Shown one piece after another: positions 18,778 through 20,472 of a stretch of 33,571 nucleotides of DNA; position 1 is the first letter of the stretch, and every line of letters begins with the position of its first letter. A program made the translations under genes and the position numbers. The stretch spans positions 1 through 33,571 of the forward strand of contig JAEFCZ010000073.1 in NCBI GenBank assembly GCA_016125975.1, written 5' to 3'. This DNA is from Candidatus Nitrosopumilus sp. (GTDB lineage: Archaea; Thermoproteota; Nitrososphaeria; Nitrososphaerales; Nitrosopumilaceae). The notes below the pieces were generated by a model that saw nothing but the letters and a program-made list of their open reading frames with translations, had not been told where the DNA came from and searched no databases.

Positions 18778-19440
18778 TTGACAATTACCGAAATTTCAAA
18801 CAAACCAATTTCTATTATCAAAAATTCTACAATTTCTGATGCTATCAAAATGCTTCTCAACACAGAGATTAGTAGGTTAATTGTAAATGATGGCGGAAAA
18901 CATGTTGGCATAATTACTGAAAAAGGCATAGGACTACTTTTGTTCTCAGAGACCACAAAAAGAGGATTAGAAAAAATACCTGTTACAGATATTATGAAAC
19001 CTATTGAATTTGTTGAACAAGATGCAACTCCCAAAAATGCTGCAAAGATTATGGTAGAAAAAGGAATTAGTTCATTGGCTATAGGAAAAGAACAAGAAGT
19101 AAAAACAATTGTTACAAAAAGTGATCTTGTAAAATATTTTGCGAGAAGACTGCCAGAGAAAAATAAAGTGGTTGATTTTATGACTCACGATTATGAATCC
19201 ACACATACAGCTGCACCATTGTATAAAGTTGTAAGAAAGATGTTAGAGAGAAAAATTTCAAGAATAATTGTAAAAAATCAACAAGAAGAACCTGTAGGAA
19301 TAATTTCATTCAGAGATCTGTTTAGAATATCAATTGAACTTGGTAGTGAAGATGATTTTTCAGGAACAAATTTTGACAATGTTAGGCGTGGATTTCTCTC
19401 AGAAGATGGGTTTGGAGTATTTCATTGGCTAGAGATGTAA
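18778..19440 (+). CDS. CBS-domain protein, frameshifted near its 3' end
   Basis: Three CBS motifs can be read (ISIIKNSTISDAIKMLL...GIITEKG; VTDIMKPIEFVEQDATPKNAA...IVTKSDL; VVDFMTHDYESTHTAAPLYKV...GIISFRDLF). CBS pairs bind adenine nucleotides and regulate attached or partner proteins. After GFLSEDGFG the frame ends in HWLEM-stop, but the adjacent frame continues the fourth CBS motif (ISLARDVMTKGLITIKFNED...VSGLVVLD), so a missing base at about 19417-19422 is likely. That fourth motif is itself cut at the junction with a ParB-like gene at 19527-19541. The TTG start has a TATA-like tttttata about 26 bp upstream. It looks like a normal CBS protein damaged twice in 120 bp. Confidence 0.8.
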   Translation: MTITEISNKPISIIKNSTISDAIKMLLNTEISRLIVNDGGKHVGIITEKGIGLLLFSETTKRGLEKIPVTDIMKPIEFVEQDATPKNAAKIMVEKGISSLAIGKEQEVKTIVTKSDLVKYFARRLPEKNKVVDFMTHDYESTHTAAPLYKVVRKMLERKISRIIVKNQQEEPVGIISFRDLFRISIELGSEDDFSGTNFDNVRRGFLSEDGFGVFHWLEM

Positions 19441-20243
19441 TGACTAAAGGATTAATCACTATCAAATTTAATGAAGACTTGGCAGAAGCTTGCAATGTAT
19501 TATTAGAAAATAATGTGAGCGGATTAGTTGTTCTTGATGGACACCATCGATATAAAATTTGTAAGGAATTAGGGATAAAACCTAAAACCGCAATTCGAAA
19601 ATTTGCTACAAAAACAGATGAAATAATTTGTGTTGGTGAGTCAAATCTACAGGGCAGGCAATTATCACCAATTCAACAAATTGAGATTGCGCAAAAACTA
19701 GAACCCCATTACAAAAAACAAGCAGAAATACGCATGAAAACTGGAAAGAAGGCAGACCCTGTGGAAATATTTCCACAGGGTAAGACTAGAGATGGGCTTG
19801 GTAAAATGGCAAATGTCTCAGGCAGAACATATGAAAAAGGCGTTGAGATTCTAAAAAAGGCACCAAAAAAAGAGATAGAAAAGGTCAAAAACGGTGACAA
19901 AAGTATATCAAAACTACATCGTGAGATTGTAAAAAAAGAGAAAAAGACAAAACTCCAAAGGGTGATAAAAAAGCAGCAGGTAATTCTACCAAAGACAGTT
20001 CAGCTTTACAACAAAAAATTCCAGGATGTGAAAATTGCACTTGGTTCTGTGTCATTGATATTTACAGATCCATTATACCATGACGAGTTTTTGTCACTGT
20101 ATAAGGACTTGGCAAAGCAGGCTTTCAAAGTGTTGCGTGATAATGGAAGTCTACTTTGCTATATCGGACAAAAAAATATTGTCAAAATAATTGCAATGAT
20201 GGGAATCAGAAAAAATCCAAACATCATTAACCTGGTTGATTAA
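19425..20243 (+). CDS. ParB-like/DNA methyltransferase fragment fused to CBS remnant
   Basis: Residues 1-38 continue the upstream CBS protein (LARDVMTKG...GLVVLD). From residue 39 the sequence is the middle of a ParB-like protein: GHHRYKICKELGI, LSPIQQIEIAQKLEPHYKKQAE, then a helix-turn-helix-like GKTRDGLGKMANVSGRTYEKG, and a lysine-rich linker. The last 70 residues begin an N6/N4 DNA methyltransferase (VSLIFTDPLYHDEFLSLYKDLAKQAFKVLRDNGSLL), with DPLY in place of DPPY, and stop at IINLVD well before the SAM-binding half. Both the ParB N-terminus and the methyltransferase C-terminus are missing. Genes of this type are common on viruses and integrated elements, so this is probably a remnant, or an assembly chimera. 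Confidence 0.75.
   Translation: MARDVMTKGLITIKFNEDLAEACNVLLENNVSGLVVLDGHHRYKICKELGIKPKTAIRKFATKTDEIICVGESNLQGRQLSPIQQIEIAQKLEPHYKKQAEIRMKTGKKADPVEIFPQGKTRDGLGKMANVSGRTYEKGVEILKKAPKKEIEKVKNGDKSISKLHREIVKKEKKTKLQRVIKKQQVILPKTVQLYNKKFQDVKIALGSVSLIFTDPLYHDEFLSLYKDLAKQAFKVLRDNGSLLCYIGQKNIVKIIAMMGIRKNPNIINLVD
19756..19781. repeat. 26-bp perfect palindrome inside the ParB-like coding region
   Basis: The half site accctgtggaaat is followed at once by its exact reverse complement atttccacagggt; the next flanking pair (g/a) does not match. It encodes ADPVEIFPQGK in the ParB-like frame. A long perfect palindrome inside a parB-like gene is the usual arrangement of a parS centromere site, although this is not the bacterial parS word. 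It could also be a hairpin or a binding site for another factor. Confidence 0.6.
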
Positions 20244-20472
20244 TAAACAGTTTCTAAATAACCTTCAATTCAAGCCTGGTATTAGACCATTTAGAGTTCC
20301 AGCAAATATTGGAAAATTCCCAATTTTGCCATTATTTGGTTTTGGAACAACTGTTTACATGGCATTACAATTTGAAGTCGAGGTAGTTCTTGTTGGATTA
20401 GCAATTATTGCAATTGGAGCTATTTTGTATATAATTTTGAGAAGAAGAAAAGATTTTATGAATTCTGATTAA
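20236..20472 (+). CDS. C-terminal fragment of an APC-type amino-acid permease
   Basis: About 78 residues from a TTG: after an unrelated-looking start (INKQFLNN) the sequence reads GIRPFRVPANIGKFPILPLFGF, then two hydrophobic helices (TTVYMALQF and VVLVGLAIIAIGAILYIILRRRK). The pattern R.FRVP...FPILP.. followed by two helices is the usual end of APC-superfamily permeases such as amino-acid transporters. The ten or so preceding helices are absent, and the upstream DNA is the methyltransferase fragment, so this is a gene remnant. Where the permease sequence begins is uncertain (between about 20210 and 20275). It converges with the next gene by four bases. Confidence 0.55.
   Translation: MINKQFLNNLQFKPGIRPFRVPANIGKFPILPLFGFGTTVYMALQFEVEVVLVGLAIIAIGAILYIILRRRKDFMNSD

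Follow-up and report, generated by a model that had tools for sequence, protein, structure and literature searches.

Linker palindromes of ParB-type DNA-binding methyltransferase genes as probable recognition sites of the encoded proteins

A palindrome in a fossil gene

The window, i.e. the whole stretch of 33,571 nucleotides analyzed here, belongs to contig JAEFCZ010000073.1 of a Candidatus Nitrosopumilus sp. An open frame at 19425–20243 opens with the C-terminal portion of a CBS-domain gene, from which it runs into a fragment of a gene for a ParB-type domain, a helix-turn-helix (HTH) and a methyltransferase (Table 1). This fragment starts within the ParB-N domain, at the peptide LDGHHR, lacks the first part of that domain and ends within the methyltransferase domain, which is truncated early and displays DPLY where relatives have DPPY. 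The ParB-like gene of the window is a dead chimera, in which a frameshifted CBS-domain gene has been joined to a piece of a mobile ParB-HTH-methyltransferase gene. The latter is a fossil truncated at both ends, and the palindrome within it is a relic.

Table 1. Positions of the features around the palindrome in the window.
Feature	Position	Strand	Remarks
Broken CBS-domain gene	18778..19544	+	1 base short near 19431 in comparison to an intact 276-aa relative; cut at ~19536-19544
ParB-HTH-N6 methyltransferase gene fragment	19536..20205	+	67% DNA identity to L032/L018 there; PHROG ParB-like matches; junction alignment
Perfect 26-bp palindrome ACCCTGTGGAAATATTTCCACAGGGT	19756..19781	.	Inferred recognition site of the ParB-HTH protein; encodes the linker peptide DPVEIFPQG
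Helix-turn-helix coding sequence KTRDGLGKMANVSGRTYEKGV	19782..19844	+	Adjoins the palindrome downstream; Arg at the specificity position
C-terminal remnant of an amino-acid permease gene	20284..20471	+	Intact (435 aa) in relative G020

The junction of the CBS and ParB parts is a stretch common to both genes (peptide VVLDG or VILDG). In the relative G020 an intact 276-aa CBS frame is followed by a 230-aa frame and the 435-aa permease frame; in comparison, approximately 1.86 kb are absent from the window and approximately 0.74 kb with the ParB fragment stand in their place. Between 19536 and 20283 the window has lost the rest of the CBS gene, the 230-aa frame and most of the permease gene, and has gained the fragment of the mobile gene. 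This change was likely caused by illegitimate recombination at the short common stretch. Matches to such genes (E ≤ 1e-10) are present in 3 of 95 genomes of the genus, a sporadic presence as expected for mobile DNA. A paralogue (G000:C91:23776-24878, hereafter C91) has an integrase-like frame upstream and an HNH-like frame downstream, both read from translations without a library scan. Its ParB part is frameshifted, either by true decay or by an error of the draft assembly, and therefore no copy that reads intact is left in the genome of the window.

A preliminary description, made from the sequence alone, had reported a perfect 26-bp palindrome within a ParB-like coding region and upstream of its HTH. 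Both statements held: ACCCTGTGGAAATATTTCCACAGGGT is a perfect 13+13 inverted repeat without spacer and forms part of the ParB-like coding frame ahead of the HTH. That the gene is a chimera of broken genes had gone unnoticed. ACCCTGTGGAAATATTTCCACAGGGT is the longest perfect palindrome of the window, all others being shorter than 18 bp. Chance had been called a very unlikely cause within about 34 kb. Base composition alone predicts 0.002 such palindromes, but of 60 simulations with a first-order Markov model of the window one also reached 26 bp. Taken alone, ACCCTGTGGAAATATTTCCACAGGGT is unusual but not impossible, and it is the comparative evidence that decides. The word was further correctly said to differ from the bacterial parS sequence: the chromosomal parS consensus is TGTTTCACGTGAAACA, and no match of the palindrome to it was found.

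Within the 1.79-Mb genome, ACCCTGTGGAAATATTTCCACAGGGT is present in a single copy with up to three mismatches allowed. For its 18-bp core exactly two occurrences were counted, each inside a ParB-methyltransferase gene, and a 22-bp core with up to two mismatches, searched in 300 genomes of the order, matched solely in the window's own genome.

Inverted repeats in the linkers of related genes

The C91 paralogue (67% DNA identity) harbors a perfect 26-bp palindrome, ACATTGTGGAAATATTTCCACAATGT, at the same place, in which each arm differs from ACCCTGTGGAAATATTTCCACAGGGT by two changes that are matched by complementary ones in the other arm. In relatives at a greater distance, the same linker holds palindromes of unrelated sequence, for example TTTTGGAGAATTCTCCAAAA in Methanoculleus virus Blf4, GACCCTGCGCCACAATTGGCGCAGGGTC in the viral contig L037 and AACTTCAGGAAAATTTTCCTGAAGTT in the Magnetococcales-related L132. 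The 18-bp core of the window is also found in the linker of the viral contig L053, where it is read in a different frame (CGNIST instead of VEIFPQ), indicating that the DNA has been kept and not the peptide. Scanning viral contigs for the exact 18-mer returned six stretches; L053 is a ParB-methyltransferase gene and the other five have not been shown to be.

For the family as a whole, 137 ORFs from archaea, bacteria and viruses were reduced to 123 non-redundant ones by dropping 14, and one unmapped locus (L140) was left out of the counts. An inverted-repeat score of at least 9 was obtained in the linker just before the HTH for 63 of the 123 genes, and for 12 of 1233 control windows that were taken from the same ORFs and matched in length. 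When the linker codons were shuffled 200 times, the observed score was attained in at most 0.5% of the shuffles for 50 of the 123 genes (p ≤ 0.005), and in at most 5% for 70 of them. The preliminary description had proposed to ask whether homologous genes keep the palindrome in place when their codons differ. This is met by the compensatory changes in C91, by the family counts and by the other frame of L053. It had also held that freely varying synonymous sites would refute the idea, which is not what the 50 linkers that beat their codon shuffles display.

The remaining 60 genes stay below a score of 9. They include the ParB-HTH genes L060-L080 without methyltransferase, which we take to be from Bathyarchaeia, a guess from their distance; none of these 19 reaches the score, and a part of the wider family is therefore without a strong linker site. 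The score is reached by 50 of 87 ORFs with a methyltransferase motif and, outside the L060-L080 set, by 13 of 17 ORFs without it, some of which are broken or cut by contig ends and among which is the gene of the window. A restriction of the site to methyltransferase fusions was considered and rejected on the count of these 17 ORFs.

In viral records, which may be fragments, the sites are usually single. The Lys-type core (named, like the Arg-type core, after the HTH residue described below) occurs exactly once in 23 of 24 records and twice in the remaining one. The Arg-type core is found once in 19 of 23 records and is absent from L289, L325, L346 and Blf4, whose cores are imperfect or of another kind. 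Blf4 has its own 20-mer once in its 37-kb genome, with nothing further within five mismatches.

Several side observations were made in these searches. TGTGGAAATATTTCCACA is present three times without mismatch in the 50-kb viral contig IMGVR_UViG_3300033518_000307 (L052, L056), as it seems not in ParB genes, and these copies may be operators of an unrelated reader. Blf4 has, at L358:35990-36024, a 35-bp near-perfect hairpin, CCTATATGCCCCAAAAGGCATTTGGGGCATATAGG, that is unrelated to the ParB site. Four ParB genes with an STRT helix (L062, L069, L071 and L113) share the half-site TTAGCG...CGCTAA, the repeat being interrupted in the first three. The linker from the ParB part to the HTH is longer by approximately 120–140 residues in L094, L095, L097 and L134; we take these additional residues to resemble a T5orf172/GIY-YIG-type domain, and the palindrome of L095 precedes them. 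Finally, in the DUF3102-like methyltransferase genes L123, L126, L127, L131 and L363 (DUF3102 was identified by Pfam in L127) mutually different palindromes with a score of 9–12 stand directly after an ERFG motif, and L362, a related gene without methyltransferase motif, lacks this palindrome segment. These cases suggest that the principle of a self-carried palindrome extends beyond ParB.

Site anatomy, protein fold and the residue-base code

The anatomy of the site was studied in the largest class, that with the recognition helix SHDT. Sixty distinct sites of this class were brought into register by AGANNTCT or by the less strict NGANNTCN, which makes positions 2 and 3 constant by design. The core CAGA/TCTG hardly varies, with an A-T pair at position 4 in 57 and a C-G pair at position 5 in 55 sites. 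Complementarity amounts to 95% at position 6, 98% at position 12 and 90% at position 13, in comparison to 38, 35 and 37% with shuffled arms, and all four pair types are used at these three positions. In contrast, complementarity in the central dinucleotide is no higher than in shuffled arms (37% vs. 41%). Coding-strand mismatches at positions 4–13 comprise 29 C.A and 4 G.T. This pattern resembles a two-fold DNA site rather than an RNA stem. Covariation extends to the outer positions 12 and 13, although no residue was found that reads them; a simple two-contact model does not predict this.

On the protein side, residues 1-205 of the relative L271 were modeled by AlphaFold2 (pLDDT 92.9). A Foldseek search with this part gave 21 matches at E ≤ 0.001, all of which are ParB, Spo0J, Noc, KorB or pNOB8-like ParB. 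For this relative the model thus predicts a ParB-N (ParB/sulfiredoxin) fold followed by the HTH. A fold search with the whole length returned methyltransferases only, which is why the N-terminal part was folded alone, and Pfam gave no ParB match at E ≤ 0.01 in the six proteins scanned. D46, G47, H48 and R50 are invariant in 24 relatives, where the GERR motif would stand, i.e. in the P motif by which members of the ParB family bind a nucleotide (CTP or another NTP). The C-terminal part, in relatives only, has the fold of a beta-class N6/N4 methyltransferase (CcrM, Z 22.0, rmsd 2.7 over 203 residues, and other methyltransferases as well), and PF01555 together with the DPPY motif is present in relatives. 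The least ordered internal stretch is the linker encoded by the palindrome, with a pLDDT below 50 for residues 121-127.

The recognition helix goes along with the core of the site. SHDT is found with CAGA/TCTG in 69 of 76 cases (identical sites merged; the other seven are without the exact core), GHDT with C[CT]GA/TCAG in 6 of 7 and [SGA]HGT with CCAA/TTGG in 5 of 5. A second relation concerns the residue ten positions before the serine of the recognition helix, termed X, which was compared with base 6 of the left arm. In the 57 sites with an exact core, Arg stands with G in 21/21, Lys with T in 22/22, Gln with A in 3/3 and Asp with C in 3/3 cases. Excluded from this tally were three duplicate sites and one without the core, and then three without the exact core. 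For Arg and Lys the association with base 6 has a Fisher p of 9.5e-13, and no other pair of columns tested reached the mutual-information z-score of X with position 6.

This code was first spotted by eye in the comparison of SHDT sites and tested afterwards, so that a held-out set is the sole independent test. Eighty loci were held out, of which 14 on contigs already seen, 16 duplicates and three present in the training set were excluded, followed by 11 without AGANNTCT in the linker and eight without motif or ORF. With the rule fixed beforehand, all 22 Arg, Lys and Gln cases were predicted correctly in both arms. Ile (4 cases) and Val (1 case) were paired with T, for which no prediction had been made. 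The 11 loci without AGANNTCT in the linker comprise seven with GHDT and four with SHDT (L427, L440, L446 and L450) that lack the core; these four are evidence against a simple helix-core rule. The rules for Gly, Ala, Met, Asn and Ser are post hoc fits to one or two cases each, and L095 (Ala-C) is an exact-core site that breaks its post hoc rule. The site scored for L134 lies approximately 400 bp away from the HTH codons and is likely not its true site.

Shared ancestry was addressed with a tree that omits linker and HTH. It requires 15 changes between Arg and Lys and 15 base changes, and independent pairs on supported branches are concordant in 12 of 12 cases, in the left as well as in the right arm (sign test p 0.0005). 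In 56 of the 57 sites, left base 6 falls on the third position of a codon, so the protein alone cannot explain the coupling of residue and base; the codon of X begins 14 nt or more downstream from the right base. The coupling links the site to the HTH of the very protein that the gene encodes. Nevertheless, the reading of the palindrome by the HTH rests on covariation only; it is inferred from sequence alone and there are no binding data.

The HTH of the window belongs to a different class, with an SGRTY-like helix and a T-R-D or A-R-D motif. It comprises about a dozen genes, whose alignment is too diverse for a scan, and no tree test was made. Here, G is present at position 6 in the window, L018, L053, L199, L132, L139 and L121, which agrees with Arg, although this was read from the alignments and carries no separate statistic.

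Proposed function, alternatives and known systems

Taken together, the palindrome very likely serves as recognition site for the product of the surrounding gene; its likeliest function, in our view, is to nucleate or load this protein in cis. Its position, symmetry, covariation, residue-base code and usually single occurrence per viral contig are shown, and direct binding and function are inferred. The suggestion of the preliminary description, a parS-like site for the ParB-like protein of a virus or integrated element, is hence supported and reaches beyond the window, in which the copy is a fossil; no binding experiment stands behind it.

In the proposed mechanism, a protein with a ParB-type N-terminal domain, an HTH and mostly also a beta-class DNA methyltransferase would act as a homodimer that reads both half-sites. 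The site is placed in the codons of the flexible linker just before the HTH, a part in which the peptide can give way to the DNA sequence. As site and reader lie side by side in one gene, both would travel and change together. Acting as a single parS-like nucleation site, the palindrome may serve for loading of the protein on the DNA molecule in which its gene resides, and the attached methyltransferase would thereby act in cis on the element's own DNA. Cis-loading is a speculative idea, put forward because the protein begins with the fold of the ParB clamps and often ends with a methyltransferase. A bolder reading is a self-addressed clamp that nucleates at the only copy of its private palindrome, within its own gene, closes and slides in a nucleotide-dependent manner like ParB and methylates only the molecule bearing its gene. 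Since site and reader form one linked cassette, the private specificity would diversify fast and co-infecting elements would not mark each other. This bolder version is possible, but less likely than not.

The evidence does not distinguish between cis-loading, autoregulation and partition; autoregulation is the main alternative, and partition is less likely. An autoregulatory operator, by which the protein blocks its own transcription from within the gene and for which the ParB domain and the methyltransferase are irrelevant to the choice of the site, remains possible. Methyltransferases and proteins of the ParB family such as KorB are known as repressors, and a single site per contig, within the gene, would fit. 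However, the site is located mid-gene and not at a promoter, and its conserved place beside the HTH is not needed for repression.

A centromere, i.e. a parS-like partition site of a low-copy element, is unlikely, and the term "centromere-like" of the preliminary description names only one of several possible functions. The ParB-type fold and parS-359 within parB of Bacillus subtilis (PMC4442127) are in its favor. On the contrary, the carrier Blf4 is described as lytic (PMC8540584), and a lytic virus does not need partition; among ParB-fold fusions a neighboring parA is reported to be consistent only for the DUF3850 fusion (PMC12704722).

A hairpin of the mRNA acting on stability, translation or termination, instead of a DNA site, is very improbable. 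Perfect repeats in coding RNA would fold, and the outer positions covary without an identified protein contact, but G-U wobble is almost absent (4 G.T vs. 29 C.A at positions 4–13), the opposite of what an RNA helix tolerates, and an RNA helix leaves unexplained why base 6 tracks an HTH residue in 22/22 held-out cases.

Two further explanations can be all but excluded. Palindromic elements of Rickettsia are known to insert in frame, and a mobile palindromic repeat inserted into a tolerant linker would account for the in-frame place in a flexible linker and for the 18-bp core recurring in other viral contigs, but unlike such an element the palindrome is not multicopy in the genome (one copy at up to three mismatches, the core twice), and the sequences vary by gene yet track HTH residues. 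A coupling at the protein level, in which a linker residue encoded by the right arm touches X (e.g., Asp-Lys) and the palindrome is a by-product, would fit the right-arm codon, which is Asp with Lys, Ala with most Arg, Val with Gln and Gly with two of three Asp, but the base in the left arm is equally strict and is a third codon position (56/57) across different amino acids.

With recognition by the encoded protein as the preferred reading, in many genes of this family the linker seems to spell out the site at which the DNA-binding domain of the same gene is directed. Thereby a natural protein-DNA recognition code (Arg-G, Lys-T, Gln-A, Asp-C) becomes legible from sequence, which helps to predict specificity. 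Moreover, the role of the phage ParB-fold methyltransferases is now directly testable; the question is whether they mark DNA in cis, starting at one loading site that their own gene supplies. A linker palindrome was found undescribed in the open-access literature searched, including PMC12704722, PMC6563490, PMC7383237, PMC12207404, PMC4442127 and PMC8540584, subscription papers and preprints being excluded. PMC12207404 was considered as a precedent and rejected.

Several known systems share parts of this arrangement. Methyltransferases of the M.SsoII type are known to repress their own genes via a palindromic operator; they have methyltransferase, HTH and palindromic site in common with the family described here, but their operators lie upstream of the gene. 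The HTH also aligns with the headpiece of the Lac repressor in a profile comparison (E 0.002), placing X at LacI residue 6 and SHDT at residues 16–19. In LacI, positions 6 and 16–19 are known to include contacts to operator bases. In contrast to LacI, no LacI sensor domain is present here and the operator lies inside the gene. The same pair of domains occurs in the phage ParB-fold proteins fused to N6_N4 methyltransferases (PMC12704722), a paper whose main text contains neither "palindrom" nor "inverted repeat."

The chromosomal and plasmid ParB-parS systems likewise combine a ParB-N fold and an HTH with a palindromic site, which may lie within a gene, as parS-359 does in parB of B. subtilis (PMC4442127). 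They differ in that the site described here stands in the linker codons directly before the HTH, is usually unique on the contig and diverges together with the HTH gene by gene, whereas parS has a fixed consensus; in addition, most members carry a methyltransferase. For ParB and Noc, a specificity code has been described that separates parS from NBS, with Q162, G170, K171 and S172 of ParB contacting the DNA (PMC7383237). In both cases a few HTH residues set the half-site, and X would correspond to ParB 162 if the serines are aligned, which is inferred and not based on a superposition. Q162 is conserved in ParB and Noc, whereas X varies, and here natural variation reveals the code, since each gene carries its own site along.
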